From positions 1 to 36,108 of the forward strand of contig JAMOQL010000188.1 in the NCBI GenBank assembly GCA_027064025.1: 36,108 bases of DNA, read 5' to 3'. Source of the stretch: Bacteroidales bacterium (GTDB lineage: Bacteria; Bacteroidota; Bacteroidia; Bacteroidales; JAFGXI01). The notes under the pieces were generated by a model. That model was given only the letters and a program-made list of their open reading frames with translations. It did no database searches and was not told the DNA's origin. This document shows, one piece after another, positions 13,594 to 35,118 of this stretch. The translations under genes and the position numbers were made by a program. Position 1 is the stretch's first letter. Every line of letters starts with the position of its first letter.

Positions 13594-14877
13594 TTATTGA
13601 TTATAGATTGAAGAATTATCTTTCATCGAATTTACTATTTTGAACCCTACTAATCGATCGTAAACATCCCCAAAACCTCGTAAATAAACATAAATAAGAT
13701 AGTTATTTTCTGTTTCGTAATGAGTGCCTTCAGTTATTTGTGGGTCAAAAATGTTTTTTTCTTTGTTAGCAAAAACATATTCATAATTATAATAACCTTG
13801 TTTTAATTTTAACATCAACTGATAAGCCTTCTTTTCGTAACTATAAACCATTTTATTTTGCTCATTAGTCTGCCAATTGGTCAACTCCCCAAATACATAT
13901 AAATCGCCATCGCTAACAGGCTCATCCATTGGCAAAACAAAATACACCTGAGCAAAATCAGCATCTACTTCAAAATCATCATAGTCTCTATTACGAACAA
14001 TATAACTTCCATTAATATCCTTTTCGTTTAAATAAACTTTAAAACGTTTATCATCATCATTCATTAAACGAACAAAGTAAATATCATCTTCAAAATAAAT
14101 TTTTGCTATTCTGTCTTGAAGATATTTTAGACTTTTCATATCAAATCGCCGAAATTCATTATAACCCTTGTATGAATTATCTTCTGTATCTTCATAGATT
14201 AACGCACCATCTCTAACAAATTGAGGCATTAAATCTGTCTTAGCCAATTGCCAAATATTATTCTGAACTACAACAACTTTTATATCGGAATATGGATCGT
14301 TAATAACCAGATCTTGCGTCAATACGGTAAAATCTACTTGTTGGTGAGTGCTTCTATATTTTGCTAATATAGCTCTACGGGTTGAAGCCTTAATTTCGAG
14401 AAGGTTCTCGCTGATAGAAAACCGTCTAGTTAAAACGAGCTTTTGTTCATCATAATCTTCGTAAACTTTAATAATATAATTACCCGAAACTTTAAACTGA
14501 ACATTATTATTTGGTAAAAATAATTTATAATGAAAGAAATTGGTAAATGTATTGAATGAAGGACGAGGAGAGTCGATTTGATTTTCAAAGAAACCATTAA
14601 GATATTCGTTTTCAGATAAGTCTGAAACGATCCAATCTGCATTGCAATGAATTATTTTATACGAAAAATCTTTTATCTCATCAGATAAGTCATCAAAAGA
14701 AAGGAGTAATTGATTATCGCTTTGTAGGTCGATAATTGGATAAGAAATTTCCCAATCAGCAATCTCCATTTTCACTGCTTTTATTTGATCTTGGTATACG
14801 TAATTATCTAAAATTAACTCTTGAGAAAAGAGGTTTGTAAAAATTAAAAAAGCAAAAACGTTTAAAAAATATCTCAT
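13594..14877 (-). CDS. DUF5103-family protein (type IX secretion system plug protein-like)
   Basis: MRYFLNVFAFLIFTNLFSQ signal peptide at in-frame ATG 14877. Body shows the DUF5103 layout (PIIDLQSDNQLLLSFDDLSDE, SFNTFTNFFHYKLFLPNN, VFGELTNWQ). The track start at 15066 overlaps the divergent mtaB. Confidence 0.8.
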   Translation of the reverse strand: MRYFLNVFAFLIFTNLFSQELILDNYVYQDQIKAVKMEIADWEISYPIIDLQSDNQLLLSFDDLSDEIKDFSYKIIHCNADWIVSDLSENEYLNGFFENQIDSPRPSFNTFTNFFHYKLFLPNNNVQFKVSGNYIIKVYEDYDEQKLVLTRRFSISENLLEIKASTRRAILAKYRSTHQQVDFTVLTQDLVINDPYSDIKVVVVQNNIWQLAKTDLMPQFVRDGALIYEDTEDNSYKGYNEFRRFDMKSLKYLQDRIAKIYFEDDIYFVRLMNDDDKRFKVYLNEKDINGSYIVRNRDYDDFEVDADFAQVYFVLPMDEPVSDGDLYVFGELTNWQTNEQNKMVYSYEKKAYQLMLKLKQGYYNYEYVFANKEKNIFDPQITEGTHYETENNYLIYVYLRGFGDVYDRLVGFKIVNSMKDNSSIYNQ

Positions 14878-14999
14878 AAAAAATGGATTGTTACGCAAAG
14901 TTAACAAATAGTCTGCCATTTGAATGTATCTTAAAGTATTTTTGCATCTATCTAAATAAGTTTTTCTAGCTTTGCAATCTAAAATTCTTCTAAATAGCA

Positions 15000-16298
15000 A
15001 TGCAAAAAATCGCGTTTCATACTTTAGGTTGCAAATTAAATTTTTCTGAGACAGCAACCCTCTCAAGACTTTTTGTAACAGAAGGCTTCGAGAAAACGGT
15101 CTTTAACAAAAAGGCAGATGTTTATGTTATTAACACCTGCTCGGTAACGGGCACAGCCGATAAAAAATGTAAAGCAGCCATAAGAAAAGCAACAAGACTG
15201 AATCCAGAAGCAACTGTAATTGTAACGGGTTGTTATGCTCAGTTAAAACCAAAAGAGATTGTAAATATTCCTGGAGTAAGCCTTGTTTTGGGGGCCAACG
15301 AGAAATTAAATCTTGATAAATATCTTGAACAAATAAACAATCGAAAAGCTCCAGAGGTTCATTCTTGCGAAATATCTGAAGTTGACAATTTCTTTTCGGC
15401 TTACTCTCTAAATGAAAGAACTCGATCTTTTTTAAAGGTTCAAGACGGTTGCGATTATCCATGTACATATTGCACGATTCCAAAGGCTCGTGGGAAAAGC
15501 AGAAATGGAACTATTGCACAAATAATCGAAGAAGCAGAAGATATTGCAGCTCATGCTGTTAAAGAAATTATATTAACAGGAGTAAATATTGGGGATTTTG
15601 GTAAATCAACTAACGAAACATTCTTCGAATTAATTCAAGCGTTAGACAAGGTTGAAGGTATAGAACGTATTCGTATTTCTTCGATAGAACCTAATTTATT
15701 GACCGATGAAATTATTAAATATGTAGCAAATTCAAAGAAAATAATGCCTCATTTTCATATTCCATTGCAATCTGGCTCCGACCATATTCTAAAAACAATG
15801 AAACGTCGGTACAATTCTAATTTATTCCGCCAAAAGGTTGAATTAATCAATAAACTAATGCCCCATGCAGCTATTGGGGTAGATGTTATTGTTGGCTTTC
15901 CATCTGAATCTGACACTCACTTTGAAGAGGCAAAGACATTTATCAATAGTTTAGATATTATGAATTTGCATGTCTTCACGTATTCCGAGCGTTCAGGAAC
16001 ACCTGCTGTGGACATTAAACCTATTGTTCCAATTAAAAAACGTCAAGAACGGAGTCGACAATTCCATGTATTATCAGATAAAAAACAACGCTACTTTAAC
16101 GAACGCTTTTTAAATACAGAACGATCTGCTCTTATTGAAATAATGAACAGTAATGGCATTATGTATGGTTTTACAGATAATTATATCAAAATTGAGTTGC
16201 CATTTGATAAAGACATCCAAAATCAAATCGTTAAAGTCCGTTTGGATTCTGTATTAGAAAATGGAAATATGAAAGCCTCTTTAATTAAAAAATTATGA
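15000..16298 (+). CDS. mtaB: tRNA (N6-threonylcarbamoyladenosine(37)-C2)-methylthiotransferase
   Basis: Methylthiotransferase: IAFHTLGCKLNFSETATLSRLF, radical-SAM CDYPCTYCTIPKARG, HFHIPLQSGSDHILKTMKRRY. KLNxxE is typical of MtaB. Confidence 0.92.
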   Translation: MQKIAFHTLGCKLNFSETATLSRLFVTEGFEKTVFNKKADVYVINTCSVTGTADKKCKAAIRKATRLNPEATVIVTGCYAQLKPKEIVNIPGVSLVLGANEKLNLDKYLEQINNRKAPEVHSCEISEVDNFFSAYSLNERTRSFLKVQDGCDYPCTYCTIPKARGKSRNGTIAQIIEEAEDIAAHAVKEIILTGVNIGDFGKSTNETFFELIQALDKVEGIERIRISSIEPNLLTDEIIKYVANSKKIMPHFHIPLQSGSDHILKTMKRRYNSNLFRQKVELINKLMPHAAIGVDVIVGFPSESDTHFEEAKTFINSLDIMNLHVFTYSERSGTPAVDIKPIVPIKKRQERSRQFHVLSDKKQRYFNERFLNTERSALIEIMNSNGIMYGFTDNYIKIELPFDKDIQNQIVKVRLDSVLENGNMKASLIKKL

Positions 16299-17883: not shown

Positions 17884-20295
17884 TTAGGCTTGATATAAAA
17901 CCGCAATAAGATCTTCTTGCTTAAAGGGTTTTGATAAATATCCATTCATACCCAATTTCAAGCATTTTTCTCGTTCCCCTTTTAAAGCATTCGCTGTCAT
18001 AGCAATAATCTTAGTAGTTTCTTTACTTTCCTTCATTTCTATATTTCTAATCGCTTGAGTAGCTTCATAGCCATTCATTTTGGGCATCTGAATATCCATT
18101 AATATAAGATCATATTTATTTTCCTTATATTTTTCTACAGCTTCCAATCCGTTATTTGCTATATCAAGTATATGCCCATTTTTTTTAATCGTATGGGCAG
18201 CCACTTTCTGATTAATCAAATTATCTTCTACCAAGAGGATTCTAAGTTCTTGACTAACTTGAATAGGAATGTCTTTCTGAGTTTTTTCAATCTCAACCCT
18301 ATCTTTAATAGAGTATTCTCCTGTAAACCAGAACGTACTTCCGTGCCCCAATTCACTCTCTATACCAACTTCGCCATCCATTAAATATGCTAATTTCTTA
18401 GAAATGGAAAGTCCTAAGCCTGTTCCTCCAAATTTACGTGTGGTTGATGCATCGACTTGAGAAAAATCTTTAAATAATTTTTTTTGATTTTCTTTAGAAA
18501 TCCCTATCCCTGTATCCTTAACACTAAATCTTAAAATAACTTTATCTTTCGTTTTCTTAATAGGCTCAATATTAATATTAACAAACCCTTTCGCTGTAAA
18601 TTTCAAAGAATTATTACAAAAATTAATAAGAATCTGTTTAATACGAAGTGCATCTCCCTCGATAAACTTTGGCGTATCGGGATGGATACTATGCGACAAT
18701 TCTAACCCTTTTGATTGTGCTTTTAGATTAAGCATTTTTACAACACTTCCCACCTCGTCGAAAAGATTAATAGGGATATTCTCTAACTCTAATTGATTAG
18801 CCTCTATTTTCGAATAATCAAGTATATCATTCACAATAGAAAGCAAACTATTTCCTGATATATCAATTATTTCTAAAGATTTTTGTTGCTCTATTGTTAA
18901 TTTTGTTTCTTTTAAAATATCAGCCATTCCTATAATTCCATTAAGTGGAGTTCTGATTTCATGACTCATGTTAGCTAAAAATAAAGACTTATATTTCGAA
19001 GCTTCTAGAGCTTTCTGTTTTTCTAATTCTAAAAGTGTTTTTTGCTCTGTTATTAATTTATTTTGTTGAATCGTATTTTCATTTAAAGTTTGAAGTTCTT
19101 CGTTATTTTGACGAAGCTCTTCTTCTACAGCTGTTAATTCTTCTAATTGTTTTTTTATTATTTGCTCATCCTCCTTCTGTTGGCTTAAATCTCTAATAAC
19201 AGAATGGACAATTATTTCATTCTCAATATTCATTGGGGTTAACCAAACCTCGCAAGGAAATAATGTTCCATCAGATTTCTTATGAATCCATTCAAATTTA
19301 TGAACTCCTTTTTCTAAAGCAATTGAAACCATTTCTTGAGATAAATCCGAACTTAACTTATTATTAATTTCTTTAGGAGAAATATCAGATGGTTTAAGAT
19401 GTAGAATTGCATCTTTATTGGGATATTTAAATAATTGTGCTGTCGCTGAATTACAATCGTAAAATTTACCATCTTTCATTAATAAAATAGCATCGTTTGA
19501 ATTCTCAAATAACAATTCAAATTTCTTTTTTTCTTCCTCAATTATTATACTCTTCCTCTCAATATTCTCATTAATAGTAAACAATTCTTCATTATTTTGA
19601 CGAAGCTCTTCTTCTATAGCCTGCAGTTCGTTGTGTCTTTCTTTAAGTTCAAATTTAGAAAGTAATAAATTTTGGTTAGTTTTTTTAACTTCTTTTTCGT
19701 ATTTAGAATTAAGATTCTGTATTAGAATTAAACTAAACGATCCAAAAATCATAAGAATAAATCCCGCTATTTTAAAAATTAATAACGAATGGGGACTACT
19801 AAATATACCTGTAATCTCAAATCCAAAGAAAGAATGAATTTCATGATAAAAAATGTATGTCAGAAAAGTTGGTAATAAGGCAATCATTAATTTTTGTCTT
19901 TCTCTAACTCCGAAAAACAAAACAGGAATCACAACTCCCATAATAATGAACAACAAGGGTGTTATGTATAAAACAACATTATAATTTGGATAAAATAAAC
20001 TGGCATAAACCGATGATGATAAAAAACTTAAAGGATACAAGAAGCTAACAATAAATTTTGTCCAATTGGTCTTTTCATACTTATTTAATAATAAACACGA
20101 TAATGCAATTAGGGCATCGAGTAAATAAGCTATATAAGGCGTATCGTTAAGGACAAAATTGGATAAAGTTAATATCGTAAATAAAATAAAAACACCTAGA
20201 ATAAGATAGTTAAGTAAAATTATCGATTTCTTTTGACTTGTAGGCATATTTTCCCTTACGCCCAAATTTGAGAATCTCTCAAGGATATTTTTCAT
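17884..20295 (-). CDS. Hybrid sensor histidine kinase: membrane N-terminus, coiled coil, PAS, coiled coil, HisKA, HATPase, REC
   Basis: 803 aa with H-box LANMSHEIRTPLNGIIGMAD, ATP-binding GTGLGLSISKKL, receiver ILLVEDNLINQKVA...DLILMDIQMPKMNGYEAT, and PAS region FELLFENSNDAILLMKDGKFYDCNSAT. Confidence 0.95.
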   Translation of the reverse strand: MKNILERFSNLGVRENMPTSQKKSIILLNYLILGVFILFTILTLSNFVLNDTPYIAYLLDALIALSCLLLNKYEKTNWTKFIVSFLYPLSFLSSSVYASLFYPNYNVVLYITPLLFIIMGVVIPVLFFGVRERQKLMIALLPTFLTYIFYHEIHSFFGFEITGIFSSPHSLLIFKIAGFILMIFGSFSLILIQNLNSKYEKEVKKTNQNLLLSKFELKERHNELQAIEEELRQNNEELFTINENIERKSIIIEEEKKKFELLFENSNDAILLMKDGKFYDCNSATAQLFKYPNKDAILHLKPSDISPKEINNKLSSDLSQEMVSIALEKGVHKFEWIHKKSDGTLFPCEVWLTPMNIENEIIVHSVIRDLSQQKEDEQIIKKQLEELTAVEEELRQNNEELQTLNENTIQQNKLITEQKTLLELEKQKALEASKYKSLFLANMSHEIRTPLNGIIGMADILKETKLTIEQQKSLEIIDISGNSLLSIVNDILDYSKIEANQLELENIPINLFDEVGSVVKMLNLKAQSKGLELSHSIHPDTPKFIEGDALRIKQILINFCNNSLKFTAKGFVNINIEPIKKTKDKVILRFSVKDTGIGISKENQKKLFKDFSQVDASTTRKFGGTGLGLSISKKLAYLMDGEVGIESELGHGSTFWFTGEYSIKDRVEIEKTQKDIPIQVSQELRILLVEDNLINQKVAAHTIKKNGHILDIANNGLEAVEKYKENKYDLILMDIQMPKMNGYEATQAIRNIEMKESKETTKIIAMTANALKGEREKCLKLGMNGYLSKPFKQEDLIAVLYQA

Positions 20296-20325
20296 AATAA
20301 ATAATAATTTTATCGTAAATAAATA

Positions 20326-22344
20326 TTAACTAAATATTGCAATTAAGGCTTCTTGTTTAAAGGGTTTTGATAAGTATCCGTTCATACCTAATTCTAAGCA
20401 TTTTTCACGCTCTCCTTTAAGAGCATTAGCTGTCATAGCAACAATTTTAACTGCACTACTACCATTTTCTTTCTCAATTCCCCTAATAGCATGAGTTGCT
20501 TCATAACCATTCAGATTTGGCATCTGAATATCCATTAATATAAGATCGTATTTATTTTTCTTATATTTTTCTACAGCTTCCAATCCGTCATTTGCTATAT
20601 CAAGTATATGCCCATTCTTTTTGATAGTATGAGCTGCCACTTTTTGGTTAATCAAATTATCTTCAACCAATAAGATATGGAGTTCTCTTAAGCTTTCTGT
20701 ATCTTCAATATCTTGTTTTTCTAATACAACAGAACTCTGAGAAACAATATTATAAACTCCTGTAAACCAAAACGTACTACCTTCTCCTAATGTGCTTTCT
20801 AAACCGACCTCTCCACCCATCATGTGAGCTAATTTTTTAGAAATAGATAACCCTAAACCTGTTCCTCCAAATTTACGTGTGGTTGATGCATCGACCTGAA
20901 CAAAATCACTAAATAATTTAGCTTGATTTTCTTTGCTAATACCCATGCCAGTATCCTTAACACTAAACTTTATTGTAACCTCATTATTATCGATATTCAT
21001 AGGTCTAAGGTCAATATTTACAAATCCTTTTTCCGTAAACTTAAGCGAATTATTACAATAATTAATTAAAATTTGTTTTATCCGAAGCGCATCTCCTTCA
21101 ACAAATTTAGGAGTATCTGGATGAATAGAATAGGACAATTCTAAGCCCTTAGATTGTGCTTTTAGCCCAAGCATCTTATTTACACTTTCTATTTCATGAT
21201 ACAAATTAAAAGGAATGGATTCAAGCTCTAATTGATTCGCCTCAATTTTAGAATAATCTAGAATGTCGTTAACAATAGAGAGTAAACTATTCCCCGAAAT
21301 ATCGATTATTTCTAAGCTATTTCTCTGATCTTTTGTCAGTTTTGTTTCTTTCAGAATATCAGCCATTCCTATAATTCCATTAAGTGGAGTTCTGATTTCA
21401 TGACTCATATTTGCTAAAAACAAAGACTTATATTTAGAAGCATCAAGAGCCTTTTGTTTCTCTTGTTCAACTAAATTCTTTTGTTTTTCAATAATTTTAG
21501 ATTTTTCTTCTAAACTCTCATTAATTGTTGAAAGCTCCTCGTTGTTCTGGCGCAACTCCTCTTCAGCAGCCTGCAGCTCTTCATTTTGTTCTTTTAAATC
21601 TTCTTTATTTTTTAAAATTAAGTCATTTTTTTCTTCTAAATCATCGTTTAAAGCTGCTAATTCTTCGTTTGTTTGTTGCAGTATTTGCTCCGAAATTAGC
21701 AAATCACTATTTACCTTTTTAAGTTTCTTTTCATAACTATAATTAAGATTCTGAATAACCATTAAACCCATTGAAATAAAAATCATCATTACAAAACCAA
21801 TAAGTTTATAAACAAAAAACGCACCTGTATCATAACTTAATAGATGATAATCAACTCCAAATAATAAATTGATCCAATCATATAAAAAATAAATTAATAA
21901 GAAAGGTAGAACTCCTAAAAACAATCTTAATTTCTTTTTAGAACCAAATAATACAACTGGCAACATTACCCCAGTAATAATAAATAAAAGAGGAGCTAAG
22001 TACAAAATAATATTATCTGTATAACCCTGAGACTTTGCAAAGGCAGAAGCAAATACAATCATCGTTGGGAAAAAAATACTAATTAAAACTTTTGATATTT
22101 TTGATTTATTATAATAATTAAGAATCAGTCCAAATAAAGCCACAAAAACATCTCCAGAAACGGCAAAACCGACTATAGGCCTATCGTAGATAATAAAATT
22201 AAAAATAGTAAGAAATGTAAATAAAAGAAAAATTCCTATTAAGAATCGGTTTAGTATTGTAATTGATTTTTGTTCACCTAAGGACATGTTTTTTTGGATT
22301 CCTAGATGAGAAATCCATTGCCAAAACGATATTACTTTATTCAT
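20326..22344 (-). CDS. Hybrid sensor histidine kinase, close paralogue of the adjacent gene but lacking the PAS domain
   Basis: 672 aa. The H-box, ATPase and receiver are near-identical to the neighbour and the N-terminal membrane region has the same layout. Confidence 0.95.
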   Translation of the reverse strand: MNKVISFWQWISHLGIQKNMSLGEQKSITILNRFLIGIFLLFTFLTIFNFIIYDRPIVGFAVSGDVFVALFGLILNYYNKSKISKVLISIFFPTMIVFASAFAKSQGYTDNIILYLAPLLFIITGVMLPVVLFGSKKKLRLFLGVLPFLLIYFLYDWINLLFGVDYHLLSYDTGAFFVYKLIGFVMMIFISMGLMVIQNLNYSYEKKLKKVNSDLLISEQILQQTNEELAALNDDLEEKNDLILKNKEDLKEQNEELQAAEEELRQNNEELSTINESLEEKSKIIEKQKNLVEQEKQKALDASKYKSLFLANMSHEIRTPLNGIIGMADILKETKLTKDQRNSLEIIDISGNSLLSIVNDILDYSKIEANQLELESIPFNLYHEIESVNKMLGLKAQSKGLELSYSIHPDTPKFVEGDALRIKQILINYCNNSLKFTEKGFVNIDLRPMNIDNNEVTIKFSVKDTGMGISKENQAKLFSDFVQVDASTTRKFGGTGLGLSISKKLAHMMGGEVGLESTLGEGSTFWFTGVYNIVSQSSVVLEKQDIEDTESLRELHILLVEDNLINQKVAAHTIKKNGHILDIANDGLEAVEKYKKNKYDLILMDIQMPNLNGYEATHAIRGIEKENGSSAVKIVAMTANALKGEREKCLELGMNGYLSKPFKQEALIAIFS

Positions 22345-27565: not shown

Positions 27566-28621
27566 TTATTTTTTTTCTTTAATTAAATATAGAAAAACAG
27601 GAAAGTGATCACTATATCCTCCTAACCATGCCCCTCCAGCAAAGGTTCTTTTAGGATAATTTTTAAACCTTCCAGATTGTTGGATTAATTCAGGGTCTTT
27701 AAATATTTCGGCTTTATAATACTTCCATTTTTGAGCATCTTTGTTAATTAAACTAGGCGAAAGCATTAATTGGTCAAACAAATTCCAAGTATCATTATAA
27801 GCCCCTGTACCGTTACCCGCTTTATAGAATTTTTCCATAGGATTAAAAAACTGATTTTCTGCGACATTATTTATATCAGCAGAAGTATTAATAACTTTTT
27901 TCACACTCTTATTGGTAGGGTCATCATTCAAATCGCCCATAATAATAATCTTTGCACCTGGTTCAATGGCTCTAATCGAATCTGAAATAGAACGGGCTAG
28001 ACCTGCTGCAGCCTCTCTAAGTGGACTAGAGCGTTTTTCTCCACCTCTACGCGATGGCCAGTGGTTCACCTGAATATAAATAGATTCCCCACCCAATTTA
28101 GCATGCACAACTAGTTGATCTCTAGTTCTGAAATTGGGCTTTTTAGAATAATATAATCTTCGGGATTGCGAATTAATAATTTTCACAAAATCTTTTCTAT
28201 AAATAAGAGCGACATCAATTCCTCGACGATCTGGAGATTCATAATGAACAATACCATAATTATATTTTTTTAAATTCGGATGATTAATCAAATCTCGGAT
28301 AACTGCTTCATTTTCGACTTCCGACACACCAACAATCATTGGAGCTGTTTTGGATAAATCTGAACCCAATTGAGAAATAACATGCGACATATTATCAATC
28401 TTTTTTAAATAACGCTCACTATTCCACATGTTTTTACCCTTTGGAGTAAACTCATCTTGTAGGATTTTATTTGGATCTGGATCTACAATCGTATCGAATA
28501 GGTTTTCTAGATTATAAAAACCAATAGTAGCTAAATCATATGATTTTTGATTTTGTGCCGTTAAGTTAAAGGTTGATATTGAAAATATTACAAGTAATAT
28601 TATTAGGCTATAATGTTTCAT
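27566..28621 (-). CDS. Secreted endonuclease/exonuclease/phosphatase (EEP) family protein
   Basis: Signal peptide (MKHYSLIILLVIFSISTFNLTAQ) and EEP motifs TIGFYNLENLFDT, VGVSEVENEAV, QVNHWPSRRGGEKRSS, IIMGDLNDDPTN and GGYSDHFPVFLYL. Confidence 0.92.
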   Translation of the reverse strand: MKHYSLIILLVIFSISTFNLTAQNQKSYDLATIGFYNLENLFDTIVDPDPNKILQDEFTPKGKNMWNSERYLKKIDNMSHVISQLGSDLSKTAPMIVGVSEVENEAVIRDLINHPNLKKYNYGIVHYESPDRRGIDVALIYRKDFVKIINSQSRRLYYSKKPNFRTRDQLVVHAKLGGESIYIQVNHWPSRRGGEKRSSPLREAAAGLARSISDSIRAIEPGAKIIIMGDLNDDPTNKSVKKVINTSADINNVAENQFFNPMEKFYKAGNGTGAYNDTWNLFDQLMLSPSLINKDAQKWKYYKAEIFKDPELIQQSGRFKNYPKRTFAGGAWLGGYSDHFPVFLYLIKEKK

Positions 28622-28900
28622 ACTTTTATGTGTTTATTTTATTTGCGAATTGCTGTACAAAATAAAAGCCAAAAATTGTAAATATGAAAGAATATCACTT
28701 ATTTTTTTTAATATTAATTGGTTAACCACAAATTCAAGCATTAATTATGATAGATATTAATGTTTCGAAGAACAAAAAAGTAAATACAAAATATGCAAAA
28801 AATAGAAATTTCATTTCCTTAATTTTAGAGATACATAATTTAACCAAAAAGTAATAATCAATCTAAAAAATAATCGTAACATTGTAGTCCCAAAAAAATA

Positions 28901-28931
28901 TTGGTCATAAACTACTAAATATTTATTTTTG
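28901..28931 (+). promoter_or_regulatory. Candidate Bacteroidota promoter for the TonB-receptor gene
   Basis: TTG (28901-28903), 20-nt spacer, TATTTTTG (28924-28931). Confidence 0.5.
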
Positions 28932-29011
28932 GAAATGTTCTTTTGAAAATATTTTTATTAATTAGATTGTAAATACAAAAAGAAGTGTTTACAACATTAA
29001 ATTCTAAACAA

Positions 29012-31501
29012 ATGAGAAGAATTCTACTACCAATTTTTATTGGTTTAGTCGGTTTTTCATTTGCACAAGAGGTTAGGGATACTAGTTCAGCCAAAATGGC
29101 GAATCTACCAACGATTAATCTTTCAACAGATGAGATTGACAACGAAGAGAGTGAAGAAGTAAGCAATGTTTCTAGTTTGCTTCAAGGCTCAAAAGATGTG
29201 TTTGTTAATACCGCAGGTTACTCCTTTGGTGCAGCACGTTTTAAAATGAGAGGGTACGATTCACGTAACACCGATGTGTTTATGAATGGGATACCTGTTA
29301 ACGATATTGAAGGAGGCCGTGTATATTGGGGCATCTGGGGTGGACTTAACGACATGACCCGTAACAAACAGTACGTTAACGGATTAGACAAAAGTCAATT
29401 TGCTTTTGGCGGCATTGGCGGTTCTAATTACATTACTACTAGAGCCTCTAAGTATCGCAAAAGTATTGGAGCTAGTTACGCTGTTTCTAACAGATCGTAC
29501 AGAAATCGAATGATGTTAACTTATGCAACAGGTGAAATGGCAAATGGCTGGTCTATTGCTGCTTCAGCATCTAAGCGATGGGCACAAGAAGGTTACCAAG
29601 AAGGAACCTCTTACGATGCTTACGCTTATTTCTTATCTGTTGAAAAGAAAATAAACGACAAACACAGTTTTGGAATTACAGCTTTTGGTTCTCCTTCTAA
29701 ACGAGGAAAAGCTGGAGGTTCTGTTCAAGAAGCATACGACCTTACAGATAATAATTATTACAACCCAAATTGGGGGTATCAAAATGGAGAAAAAAGAAAT
29801 GCTAAAGTTTCTACTTCTCACAAACCTCATATTATTCTTTCGCATTATTACACACCGTCCGATAAATTATCAGTAACCACTTCTTTAAGCTATGCTTTTG
29901 GAACGTACGGAACAACTGCATTAGATTGGTACAATACTGCCGACCCAAGACCAGATTATTATCGAAAATTACCTTCCTATTATGATGACCCTACAGCCAG
30001 CGCAGCTGTTGCTGAAGCTTTTAAAGCCAATCACCAGTTAGATTGGGATCATTTTTATACTGTAAATAAATATAATAAAGACGGACGTTCTTCATACATT
30101 ATCGAAGAAAGAAAAACAGATTATACACAAGCTAACGCAAGCGTAATAGCTAATTATAAAATGAATGATAAAATTGCCATCGATGGTGGTGCTAATTACA
30201 GTTACTACAAAGGAAGACATTACAAAGAAGTTAACGATTTATTAGGAGGTCAGTATTATTTAGATATTGATAAATATGCAGAAAGAGATTTCCCTAACGA
30301 TCCTGATATGATTGATAACGACATTAATAATCCAGATAAAGTAAGACACGTAGGTGATGTATTAGGTTACGATTACGATATGAATCAAACAAAATATTCT
30401 GCTTGGGGACAAGTATCTGCAAAACTAGAAAAACTAGACCTCTTTGCTGCTCTTAATCTTTCTAATACCACTTTCTGGAGAACAGGACATATGCAAAACG
30501 GTAAATTTAAGGACAATTCTTTTGGCGATTCTGAAAAACAAAACTTCTTTAATTATGGAATTAAAGCAGGAGCCACTTATAAAATTAATGGAAGAAATTA
30601 CGTTTATGCTCAAGGTTATTACGGAACTAGAGCTCCTTTAATCAGAAACTCGTATGTTTCGGAAAGAACCCGAGATTTTACAGTTGATGGTTTATCGGAA
30701 GAAACAGTCATGTCAGCCGACGGAGGTTATTATTTACGTTCTCCTAGGATTAAAGCTAGACTCTCTGGATACTATGCTAAATTCCAAAATCAAACTCAAG
30801 TTTACAGTTTTTACAACGATAAATTTAACAGCTATACTAATCAGATTTTATCGGGAATCGATAAACAAAACATGGGTATAGAATTAGGTATCGACGGAAA
30901 GATTAATTCAAGCTTTTCAGCTAATGCCGTAGTGGCTATTGGTCAGCACACTTACACCAACCGACCAACAGGCGTAACCATTCAAGATAACGATGCAACA
31001 CCTTTAGCACAAGGAACAACTATCTACCAAGAAAATTTTTACCAAGCTATGGGACCACAAAATGCTTACTCTTTAGGAGTTAAATATACTAATCCTCATT
31101 TTTGGTTTGTTACTCTAACAGCTAATTATTATCAAAACAATTATCTACAGTTTAACCCTGCTCGTAGAACAGCAGAGGCTGTTTCTAACGAAACAGGAAC
31201 TCAGCAAATAGAATCAGGATCAGAACTATGGGATCAAGTTATCAATCAAGAAAAACTTAAAGATAATTTTACTTTAGATTTATTTGCTCGTAAAACTTGG
31301 AGAGTAAAAGGTTACTATATATACTTAAATGCAGGAGTTAACAATATTTTAAACAATCAAGATTTTGTAACTGGTGGATATGAACAAAGACGTTTCGATT
31401 TTCAAGACAATCCAAACGAATCTAATGTGGATAAATTTCCACCAAAATATTTCTACGCTTATGGTATTAACTACTTTGTAAGTGTTGGATTTTGGCTATA
31501 A
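29012..31501 (+). CDS. TonB-dependent receptor (start placed at MRRILLPIF)
   Basis: Signal peptide MRRILLPIFIGLVGFSFAQ, plug domain (VSSLLQGSKDVFVNTAGYSFGAARFKMRGYDSRNTDVFMNGIPVNDIEGG) and a long beta-barrel ending in an aromatic residue region (YFVSVGFWL). Confidence 0.9.
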   Translation: MRRILLPIFIGLVGFSFAQEVRDTSSAKMANLPTINLSTDEIDNEESEEVSNVSSLLQGSKDVFVNTAGYSFGAARFKMRGYDSRNTDVFMNGIPVNDIEGGRVYWGIWGGLNDMTRNKQYVNGLDKSQFAFGGIGGSNYITTRASKYRKSIGASYAVSNRSYRNRMMLTYATGEMANGWSIAASASKRWAQEGYQEGTSYDAYAYFLSVEKKINDKHSFGITAFGSPSKRGKAGGSVQEAYDLTDNNYYNPNWGYQNGEKRNAKVSTSHKPHIILSHYYTPSDKLSVTTSLSYAFGTYGTTALDWYNTADPRPDYYRKLPSYYDDPTASAAVAEAFKANHQLDWDHFYTVNKYNKDGRSSYIIEERKTDYTQANASVIANYKMNDKIAIDGGANYSYYKGRHYKEVNDLLGGQYYLDIDKYAERDFPNDPDMIDNDINNPDKVRHVGDVLGYDYDMNQTKYSAWGQVSAKLEKLDLFAALNLSNTTFWRTGHMQNGKFKDNSFGDSEKQNFFNYGIKAGATYKINGRNYVYAQGYYGTRAPLIRNSYVSERTRDFTVDGLSEETVMSADGGYYLRSPRIKARLSGYYAKFQNQTQVYSFYNDKFNSYTNQILSGIDKQNMGIELGIDGKINSSFSANAVVAIGQHTYTNRPTGVTIQDNDATPLAQGTTIYQENFYQAMGPQNAYSLGVKYTNPHFWFVTLTANYYQNNYLQFNPARRTAEAVSNETGTQQIESGSELWDQVINQEKLKDNFTLDLFARKTWRVKGYYIYLNAGVNNILNNQDFVTGGYEQRRFDFQDNPNESNVDKFPPKYFYAYGINYFVSVGFWL

Positions 31502-31558
31502 GCTATCCTTGACAAATATTTAAATAAAAAAAGAAAATAATATATTAATATTTCAATC

Positions 31559-33367
31559 ATGAAAAATACATTTAAAATAATACTAAGCCTATTTATCATT
31601 ACAGGGTTAATGATGACAAGCTGTGTAAAAGACGATTTCGACCAACCAGAAACCCCAGATCCTTGCGATATTAGCTCAGGACTAACACCAACTTCGGGAT
31701 TAACAGTTCAACGCTTATTGACAGAATATCCTTCTTTTAAAGTACTAGATGCTGCTGGAGAAGTAAGAGAATTTCCTGTTGATTCTAATTATATTTTCGA
31801 AGGCGTTATTGTTTCTAGCGATGAGACAGGAAACTTTTACAAAGCTATTTATGTACAAGATGCTACAGGCGGTATTATGCTTAGTATAGATGGTACAAGT
31901 TTATTTAATGATTATAAAATTGGACAAACTGTACATATCAAATTATCTGGGTTAACCTGCCATTATTCAACAGGTTCGTTCGAAACAGAAATTATTGAAA
32001 TAGGTTACGGACAGTACTCAGATTCCTACGGTCAAAAGATAGGCAGAATTCCTGTTACAGTATTGCCACAGTTTGTAAAAAACAATTCTTGTCCTACAAC
32101 GGTAACACCAATAGATATCGACATGTTGTCTAGCGACAATTCAAATATTGGTCGATTAGTTAGATTATCGGATGTAGAATTTATTGATAGCGAATTGGAT
32201 AGTACCTATGCTTTTACTAATAAGAATACAGATAGACATATCCAAGATTGCAATGGGAACCAAATAATTGTAAGAAATAGTGGGTATGCAAATTTTGCTG
32301 CATTACAATTGCCACAAGGCAAAGGAACTATAACAGGTATTTATACTAAATACAACGGAGCAGTTCAGTTTATTATTAGAGATACTACCGATGTAGATAT
32401 GAATGGTACACGTTGCGGTGGTGGTATAAATCCAGGTGCAGGTACTGGTTCTGGAACTTTCGACGATCCTTACGATATTGAAGCAGCAACAGCTAATCAA
32501 GACGCTGCAACTGGCGTTTGGGTAACAGGTTATTTAGTAGGTGTTTACAATACAGATGGCACAGATAATATTTCTGAATTTACACCTCCATTTACTATTG
32601 CATATAATGTATATTTAGCTCCTACAGCTGACGAAACTGATACAACAAAAATGTTAATGATTCAATTACCTTCAGGAGAAATTAGAGATTCAACAAATTT
32701 ATCTAGCAATGGCGGTATGTACCAGCAAGAAGTAAAATACCATGGTGACTTACTAACTTATAATAACCTTCCTGGATTAAAAAATACTGATGGTTATTGG
32801 AAAATGTCCACAAATACAGGTTTAGACCCTAATTATGTTGATCCAGGAACAATTTGGTCAGAAGATTTTTCTGCAATTGCAAACCCTTACGATCCTATCA
32901 CCTCTATGACTGTTGTAATGGAAGCAGGAACAAAAGACTGGCATGGTGATGGCTATAATGGTCAATCTGCAGAAATGTCCGCTTATGACTCAGGAGAAGC
33001 TAGTAATATTGGTTGGTTAATTACACCAGCTATTGATTTAACAACAGCAACTGCTCCAAAATTAACTTTCTACTCTGCTTTAAAATACTCAGCAGGAGAT
33101 TTACTTACGGTTTGGATTTCGACAAACTACGATGGTGGAACTTCACCACAAACAGCAACATGGACAGAGTTAACTTCTGCAAATATTGTTGATTCATCTG
33201 ATCCTGTAGATGGAGCATCAGGTTATAATTACACTACCTCAGGAGATGTTGATTTATCAACTTATACCTCATCTTCTACAGTATATATTGCATGGAAATA
33301 TGTTGGTAGCGGAACTAACGGTGAAACAACTAAATATAGAGTTGATGATATTAGAATTGGAGAATAA
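31559..33367 (+). CDS. Lipoprotein with DUF5689 (OB-fold-like), a second DUF6359-like OB region and a choice-of-anchor-J-like C-terminal domain
   Basis: Lipobox MMTSCVKDD. Regions: EGVIVSSDETGNFYKAIYVQDATGGIMLSIDGTSLFNDYKIGQTVHIKLSGL; GTFDDPYDIEAATANQDAATGVWVTGYLVGVY; WSEDFSAI...NIGWLITPAIDLTTATAPKLTFYSALKY. Confidence 0.8.
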   Translation: MKNTFKIILSLFIITGLMMTSCVKDDFDQPETPDPCDISSGLTPTSGLTVQRLLTEYPSFKVLDAAGEVREFPVDSNYIFEGVIVSSDETGNFYKAIYVQDATGGIMLSIDGTSLFNDYKIGQTVHIKLSGLTCHYSTGSFETEIIEIGYGQYSDSYGQKIGRIPVTVLPQFVKNNSCPTTVTPIDIDMLSSDNSNIGRLVRLSDVEFIDSELDSTYAFTNKNTDRHIQDCNGNQIIVRNSGYANFAALQLPQGKGTITGIYTKYNGAVQFIIRDTTDVDMNGTRCGGGINPGAGTGSGTFDDPYDIEAATANQDAATGVWVTGYLVGVYNTDGTDNISEFTPPFTIAYNVYLAPTADETDTTKMLMIQLPSGEIRDSTNLSSNGGMYQQEVKYHGDLLTYNNLPGLKNTDGYWKMSTNTGLDPNYVDPGTIWSEDFSAIANPYDPITSMTVVMEAGTKDWHGDGYNGQSAEMSAYDSGEASNIGWLITPAIDLTTATAPKLTFYSALKYSAGDLLTVWISTNYDGGTSPQTATWTELTSANIVDSSDPVDGASGYNYTTSGDVDLSTYTSSSTVYIAWKYVGSGTNGETTKYRVDDIRIGE

Positions 33368-33380: not shown

Positions 33381-33397
33381 AATTATTTTTATATCAT

Positions 33398-33431
33398 AAA
33401 GGCTGTCTCAAAAGAGATGGCCTTTGTTTTT
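33398..33431 (+). terminator. Rho-independent terminator after the DUF5689 lipoprotein
   Basis: AAAGGCTGTCTC-aaaa-GAGATGGCCTTT followed by GTTTTT. Confidence 0.75.
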
Positions 33432-33570
33432 AATAGTAAATATCGGCTTTTAGAAGAAAAAAATAAATTATAACTAAAATAAGTGTAATTCGAAACACAA
33501 TAATGAGTAATTTTATTACGTTAGCCACATATTGACACAAGCCTATTATTTCATAAACAGAAACAAAAAC

Positions 33571-35118
33571 ATGAGCAAAATAAAAATACTTTGGGTAGAC
33601 GATGAAATTGATTTACTCAAACCACATATCATATATTTAGAAAACAAAGGTTACCAAGTAGATACCATAAATAATGGACACGATGCCATAGAGATGGTCG
33701 AAAAAAGCTTCTATGATATTATCTTTTTAGACGAAAATATGCCTGGTATTTCCGGAATAGAAACCCTAAACCAAATAAAAAGATTTGCACCTTCTATACC
33801 TGTAGTAATGATTACAAAAAGTGAAGAAGAGAATATTATGGAAGACGCTATTGGAGGCGATATAGCAGACTACCTTATCAAGCCAGTGAAACCAACTCAG
33901 GTTATCCTATCCATCAAAAAACATGTTCAGAAATCAGAAATTATTAGTGAAAAAACTAGCTCAGCATATCAAGGTAAATTTCAATCATTGCTTGCCGAAA
34001 TCAATATGGCCAACACGTACCAAGAGTGGATCAATATCTATAAAAAAATTGTGTATTGGGAATTAGAATTAGAAAAGTCGGGTAGCAATGTGATGGACGA
34101 TATTCTAGATATGCAAAAAAGCGAAGCTAATCTCGCATTTGGTAAATTTATCAAGAAGAATTATACCGAATGGTTTAAAGGTTCAGAAAAACCTATTATG
34201 TCCCCTGAAATATTCAAAAACTATGTCTTTCCAAATCTATCGGAAGAATATACCACCGTATTTCTTTTAATTGATAACCTCAGATACGACCAATGGAAAA
34301 CCATATTGCCAAACATTCGCAAATATTATAATGTAGAAAAAGACGATTTGTTTTACTCAATACTACCAACTGCCACGCAATACTCGAGAAATGCTATGTT
34401 TGCCGGAATGATGCCTTTAGAAATAGATAAACATTTTCCTAATTATTGGCTGAACGATGATGAAGAAGGTGGAAAAAATCAGTACGAACCAGAATTATTA
34501 GAATACCAAATGGAACGTGCTGGAATTGATGAATCTTTCCATTTCGAAAAAATATTTAACAATAAACAAGGACAAAAAGTAGTCGATAATTACAAAGATT
34601 TACTCAATCATAAACTCTCTGTTTTGGTTTTCAATTTTGTAGATATCTTATCGCATGCCCGTACCGACTCGAAAATGATTAGCGAACTTGCACAAGACGA
34701 ATCAGCTTACCGTTCGCTAACTCAATCTTGGTTCGAGCACTCTTCACTACTTGAACTCTTAAAAGTATTAAGCCAAGAGAAAGTAAAAATTGTAATATCA
34801 ACCGATCACGGAACAATTCAAGTCGAAGAAGCAAGAAAAGTAATTGGAGATAAAAATACTTCGGTAAACTTACGTTACAAAATGGGAAAGAATTTAGATT
34901 ACAATCCTAAAGAAGTATTCGAAATAAAAAACCCTTCAGATATTAAGTTACCAGCTTCGAACCTAACATCTTCGTATATTTTTGCTCTTAACAACGATTT
35001 CTTGGCCTACCCAAACAATTACAATCATTATGTAAAATATTACAAAAATACTTTTCAACATGGAGGCGTTTCCATGGAAGAAATGTTAATTCCTGCAATA
35101 ACATTGATTCCTAAATAG
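33571..35118 (+). CDS. porX: PorX-type response regulator with REC and PglZ/alkaline-phosphatase-superfamily domains
   Basis: REC: MSKIKILWVDDEIDLLKPH...DIIFLDENMPGISGIETL...DYLIKPVKPTQVILSIKKHV. PglZ: TVFLLIDNLRYDQWKTILPNI, FNFVDILSHARTDSKMI, VISTDHGTIQVE. Confidence 0.92.
   Translation: MSKIKILWVDDEIDLLKPHIIYLENKGYQVDTINNGHDAIEMVEKSFYDIIFLDENMPGISGIETLNQIKRFAPSIPVVMITKSEEENIMEDAIGGDIADYLIKPVKPTQVILSIKKHVQKSEIISEKTSSAYQGKFQSLLAEINMANTYQEWINIYKKIVYWELELEKSGSNVMDDILDMQKSEANLAFGKFIKKNYTEWFKGSEKPIMSPEIFKNYVFPNLSEEYTTVFLLIDNLRYDQWKTILPNIRKYYNVEKDDLFYSILPTATQYSRNAMFAGMMPLEIDKHFPNYWLNDDEEGGKNQYEPELLEYQMERAGIDESFHFEKIFNNKQGQKVVDNYKDLLNHKLSVLVFNFVDILSHARTDSKMISELAQDESAYRSLTQSWFEHSSLLELLKVLSQEKVKIVISTDHGTIQVEEARKVIGDKNTSVNLRYKMGKNLDYNPKEVFEIKNPSDIKLPASNLTSSYIFALNNDFLAYPNNYNHYVKYYKNTFQHGGVSMEEMLIPAITLIPK

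Follow-up and report, generated by a model that had tools for sequence, protein, structure and literature searches.

A three-gene locus of a Bacteroidales bacterium, encoding a TonB-dependent receptor, an outer-membrane lipoprotein and a DNase-like protein of the EEP family, probably serves as the module that takes up DNA across the outer membrane in a pilus-free form of natural transformation in Bacteroidota. It was analyzed in contig JAMOQL010000188.1, the whole 36,108-nt stretch of which is referred to below as the window. The locus bears on how foreign DNA crosses the outer membrane of Bacteroidota, a dominant phylum of the gut, soil and sea. The receptor–lipoprotein pair has been known from one transposon screen in one species. 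What is new is that the pair, together with a DNase-like third gene, forms a module that occurs in many families across several orders and is apparently passed on vertically, and that the conserved EEP gene, absent from discussion in the paper we found, can be named as a candidate for the nuclease lacking in the published model.

Organization of the locus

The three open reading frames described in the earlier note are all present at the positions listed in Table 1, the EEP gene being divergent from the other two. For the receptor, the first ATG yielding a signal peptide was taken as the start, whereas the mechanical ORF begins at GTG 28985. Only 57 bp separate the receptor and lipoprotein genes, and the latter is followed by a strong terminator-like hairpin, so that the pair probably forms a two-gene operon ending before porX. 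An Rfam search found no element in the intergenic region, the sole match being a tRNA.

Table 1. Features of the receptor–lipoprotein–EEP locus in the window
Feature	Coordinates	Strand	Evidence
EEP-family (Exo_endo_phos_3) nuclease-like protein	27566..28621	-	PF19580, E = 1.2e-119
Intergenic region, 390 bp, presumed site of both promoters	28622..29011	.	sequence
TonB-dependent receptor, proposed outer-membrane DNA importer, RA0C_RS04915 orthologue	29012..31501	+	Plug domain, tree
Lipoprotein, proposed DNA-binding partner of the receptor, RA0C_RS04920 / M949_1556 orthologue	31559..33367	+	domains, lipobox
Terminator-like hairpin, 14 pairs plus T run, upstream of porX	33396..33427	+	sequence

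The gene directly after the operon encodes the PorX regulator of type IX secretion (NF052313, 802 bits). A T9SS plug-domain protein (PF17116) is also encoded in the window, the type IX secretion genes being located at 33532–35118 and 13594–15066. Two hybrid histidine kinases (HisKA, HATPase, receiver) are found in tandem on the minus strand at 17884–22344.

A Plug domain (PF07715, E = 5e-6) is present in the receptor, which matches no NCBIfam model, those of SusC included. The absence of a SusD partner, pointed out previously, holds: Pfam and NCBIfam models identify no SusD gene at the locus, which, lacking both a SusC-type receptor and a SusD lipoprotein, falls outside the SusC/SusD systems. 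Among viral contigs only one distant paralogous receptor was identified, and plasmid records yielded distant homologues only. Sequence searches of solved structures with the receptor, the EEP protein and the lipoprotein returned nothing usable.

Orthology to the transformation genes of Riemerella anatipestifer

In Riemerella anatipestifer, a transposon screen for genes of natural transformation (Huang 2021, PMC8459023) showed two adjacent genes to be essential: RA0C_RS04915, encoding an outer-membrane protein with a carboxypeptidase-regulatory domain, and RA0C_RS04920, encoding a protein with DUF5689 and choice-of-anchor J domains. Markerless deletion of either gene reduced transformation below the detection limit, compared to 5.4e-5 in the wild type, and the same was observed for insertions in comEC, dprA, comF and recA, whereas the remaining markerless mutants that had a defect, among them envelope mutants, showed only a 6–128-fold drop (PMC8459023). 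Moreover, transformation is lower in tonBA and tonBB mutants, of which tonBA has no iron-uptake defect (PMC8383284).

We found the R. anatipestifer locus via the published comEC primer and then searched the genome with the receptor profile. The best match (728 bits, compared to 173 bits for the next one) lies on the comEC contig NZ_QXHU01000005.1, with the gene order recA, dinB, sdhB, sdhA, sdhC, comEC, a gene for a 145-aa protein, carboxylase, EEP, receptor, lipoprotein. The last three genes, 2.2 kb from comEC, comprise EEP on the minus strand, followed by the receptor and the DUF5689 lipoprotein on the plus strand. Counting from recA (RS04870) and comEC (RS04895), they correspond to RS04910, RS04915 and RS04920, the numbering being assigned by gene order in strain CCUG25054, not taken from the ATCC 11845 record itself. 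As in the paper, the receptor is predicted to carry CarboxypepD_reg and the lipoprotein DUF5689 and anchor J.

In a tree of 63 proteins, the window receptor and RS04915 belong to one clade of 57 orthologues (SH-aLRT 100), while one paralogue each from Riemerella and from the window's own family lie outside it. The identity between the window and Riemerella proteins is 35% over 823 aa for the receptor, 39% for the EEP protein, and 31% over 304 aa, in the N-terminal half, for the lipoprotein. The window pair is orthologous to RS04915/RS04920. The family of the Riemerella locus belongs to the same class as the window and to a different order. The receptor seems to be inherited vertically, as the branching of its tree largely tracks taxonomic groups. 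The receptor homologue was published as restricted to Flavobacteriaceae (PMC8459023); since the window receptor forms a clade with RS04915 across orders, this statement needs widening, and the system reaches well beyond that family. The window has what characterizes the Riemerella-type module, that is, an RA0C_RS04915 orthologue and a DUF5689/anchor-J lipoprotein gene immediately downstream of it in the same putative operon.

The host genome also contains comEC, dprA, a gene for a triple helix-hairpin-helix protein like RS02645, and one for a DUF1343 protein like RS09020; the gene set known from Riemerella can be complete here. These four genes are near-universal in relatives and so do not discriminate. 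Co-occurrence with comEC and dprA was likewise discarded as a test of role, as both are present in nearly all of the 60 relatives regardless of the receptor.

Conservation of the three-gene module

Two samples were used, 60 relatives and 198 genomes across the phylum, with neighborhoods pooled from both. An orthologue of the receptor is present in 31 of the 60 relatives, mostly well separated in score from paralogues, and in 28 of the 198 phylum genomes, where it scores at least 618 bits and everything else at most 266 bits. The lipoprotein gene is directly downstream of the receptor gene in 55 out of 58 loci. The EEP gene is directly upstream in 36 out of 53 loci with enough sequence: in 35 it is divergent, with the spacing conserved (mostly 27–658 bp between ORF starts), and in one genome it precedes the receptor gene by 23 bp on the same strand, in an operon-like arrangement. 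This organization recurs in roughly 20 families from several orders of the phylum.

Clustering of all neighboring ORFs produced three frequent families (59, 56 and 37 loci), the next one occurring in only 9, and thus revealed no other conserved gene around the trio. In particular, the conserved genes of the locus include no nucleotidase, phosphatase, phosphate transporter or other gene for phosphate acquisition.

The earlier note had proposed co-occurrence of the families as a check, and the outcome is clear-cut: the EEP subfamily, defined by a score of at least 380 bits, is present in 26 of the 31 receptor-positive relatives and in 2 of the 29 receptor-negative ones (Fisher p = 7e-10; the genomes are related and were picked for having the receptor, so that the counts are not independent trials, yet they span about 20 families). 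Four out of five receptor-negative members of the class examined for EEP had none. The gene is non-adjacent in 17 of the 53 loci, and most of those genomes have a copy elsewhere. The receptor, lipoprotein and EEP genes constitute a discrete conserved module, the arrangement of which is far beyond chance, and the EEP gene (RA0C_RS04910 in Riemerella) is its third member.

The EEP protein

The EEP protein scores 399.4 bits with PF19580 (gathering score 27), and its catalytic-type motifs N37, E101, H187, D230, N232, D283 and D338-H339, which we take to correspond to DNase I and exonuclease III residues, are invariant across 19 homologues; both features place it in the EEP superfamily. The nearest named family for 15 of the 19 members is the ExeM/NucH DNase, at scores below the membership cut-off (the window protein, with 28.6 bits against NF033681 and a cut-off of 300, is not a member of this extracellular endonuclease family), and two members match exonuclease III. 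The protein is DNase-like, and its catalytic motifs are intact. It has a Sec signal peptide and no T9SS sorting domain, the EEP domain extending to the C-terminus, and is predicted to be periplasmic or secreted, probably the former.

Given the Sec signal, the lack of a T9SS tail, the invariant catalytic-type residues and the matches to ExeM/NucH and exonuclease III, the EEP protein makes a good candidate for the nuclease that would cut the DNA. In the published model, the production of single-stranded DNA was left to “an unidentified protein”, and RS04910 was named only as an unaffected upstream gene (PMC8459023).

In one genome (locus L117, 11076–12194), the EEP gene encodes a lipobox (LTGC), and the protein would be membrane-anchored there rather than soluble. 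A second EEP (PF19580) paralogue directly adjoins comEC in two genomes of different families, which suggests a wider tie between EEP nucleases and competence; none of the relocated EEP genes themselves have comEC as a neighbor, these two comEC-adjacent copies being paralogues only.

A serious possibility, if in our view a somewhat doubtful one, is that the pair imports DNA and the EEP gene is a mere neighbor, whose product may degrade surface DNA or act on phospholipids or inositol phosphates. The superfamily also comprises phosphatases and sphingomyelinases, the EEP gene is apart from the pair in a Flavobacterium-like genus (17–49 kb away where both are on the same contig) and in several relatives of the window, and it is not among the hits of the screen of 3000 mutants (PMC8459023). 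However, we estimate that roughly one in five screens of 3000 random insertions would leave a gene of 1.2 kb unhit, the best named family of the protein is a DNase, and an EEP paralogue adjoins comEC in two genomes. Moreover, adjacency prevails in most loci across many families, and even when separated the gene is retained in receptor-positive genomes while mostly missing from receptor-negative ones, which favors the EEP protein as a functional partner of the pair.

The lipoprotein

The outer-membrane lipoprotein has a lipobox with Cys22, nearly invariant among homologues, and three domains: DUF5689 (PF18942, E = 5e-61), as recognized earlier, DUF6359 (PF19886, 1e-25) and choice-of-anchor J (NF038128, 3e-15). 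The last two correspond to regions previously taken for a second OB-like region and a carbohydrate-binding-like C-terminus, respectively. Binding of glycans or proteins is common among choice-of-anchor J domains. The OB-like nature ascribed to DUF5689 gains slight support from marginal OB-fold matches in 3 of 35 homologues (best E = 3e-4); an AlphaFold model of this region built from one sequence had a pLDDT of 33, too low to judge the fold. In nine loci of relatives, two DUF5689-type lipoproteins follow the receptor in tandem, and the binder may be duplicated or multi-part there.

The transformation lipoprotein of R. anatipestifer (L159, 15387–16796) belongs to the M949_1556 family NF052645, passing it at 590.8 bits. 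The window lipoprotein scores 217.8 bits in two stretches with a cut-off of 475 and is outside the curated family; by its sequence it is a distant relative rather than a member. Mutation of M949_1556 in R. anatipestifer was reported to alter antigenicity and pathogenicity or virulence (PMC4976936, PMC12566107). In our literature search, no paper connecting that work with the transformation work was found.

Proposed role

TonB-driven import of DNA for transformation is the most likely role of the locus, because the orthologous pair is essential for transformation in Riemerella. The lipoprotein would capture double-stranded DNA from outside on the surface of the cell, and the receptor, energized by TonB, would draw it through its barrel into the periplasm. 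There the Sec-exported EEP nuclease would trim the DNA or degrade one strand, and single-stranded DNA would enter via ComEC and be handled by DprA and RecA. We infer that this route operates independently of pili and that the host organism is transformable. On the other side, the loss of transformation in Riemerella could be indirect and the TonB effects nutritional, and the window lipoprotein has diverged, with 31% identity over the first half and with DUF6359 being extra.

An improbable alternative is nutritional scavenging, with the module capturing and digesting extracellular DNA or RNA and importing oligonucleotides or nucleotides for phosphorus, nitrogen or carbon. Bacteroidota are reported to be important degraders of extracellular DNA with secreted nucleases (PMC8289736), the arrangement of binder, receptor and hydrolase is reminiscent of loci for nutrient uptake, and the EEP protein is DNase-like. 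However, the orthologues are required for transformation, where long intact DNA must survive uptake (PMC8459023), and in R. anatipestifer, whose transformation is described as constitutive, removing phosphate makes transformation fall, not rise (PMC8383284). With this and with no phosphate gene conserved at the locus, a phosphate regulon was rejected as the leading explanation. The earlier note had envisaged that extracellular DNA is bound at the surface, imported and hydrolyzed, for phosphate or nucleic-acid scavenging; the first part fares well, as the orthologues are essential for transformation and the EEP protein resembles extracellular DNases, while the scavenging part finds no support here, the demonstrated role of the orthologues being genetic transformation. 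DNA taken up in this way may additionally be used as a nutrient.

The least probable reading, a decidedly unlikely one, assigns the pair another ligand or an envelope role, a nutrient, glycan or envelope component being imported or anchored and the Riemerella defect being indirect, as might suit the typical ligands of choice-of-anchor J domains, the altered antigenicity and virulence of the M949_1556 mutant, and the SusC-like and envelope genes hit in the same screen; against it, both deletions behave like the comEC, dprA and recA mutants and not like the milder envelope mutants, and the partner gene is DNase-like.

Beyond uptake of DNA by the window locus, it is conceivable, and we propose it tentatively, that the TonB receptor and a DNA-binding lipoprotein replace the pilus throughout the phylum, with the EEP protein as a dedicated nuclease fitting DNA for ComEC. 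If true, this would be a phylum-wide DNA-uptake architecture distinct from the pilus-based ones. The result is one short gene list that can be tested in many hosts, and a pointer to which Bacteroidota may be transformable.

Comparison with known systems

The closest system is RS04915–RS04920 of Riemerella, with an orthologous receptor followed by a DUF5689/anchor-J lipoprotein and a divergent EEP gene upstream in both. However, the N-terminal CarboxypepD_reg domain is missing from the window receptor, DUF6359 is additional in the window lipoprotein, and comEC, nearby in Riemerella, is on another contig in this genome, from a different order.

In the SusC/SusD nutrient uptake loci, too, the gene for a TonB-dependent receptor precedes that for a surface lipoprotein and a hydrolase is encoded close by, but the window locus has no SusD protein, no SusC-type receptor match and no conserved neighboring glycan enzymes. 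For 15 of the 19 EEP homologues, the ExeM/NucH extracellular DNases are the best match, though a weak one; unlike them, the window protein is single-domain, with nothing fused to it, and probably periplasmic.

Other Gram-negatives and Streptococcus take up DNA using type IV pilus-based systems and EndA-like nucleases. The division of labor is the same, in that DNA is captured, brought through the outer layer, stripped of one strand by a nuclease and handed to ComEC, but here a TonB-dependent receptor and a lipoprotein would replace the pilus and secretin, and the nuclease would have the EEP fold.
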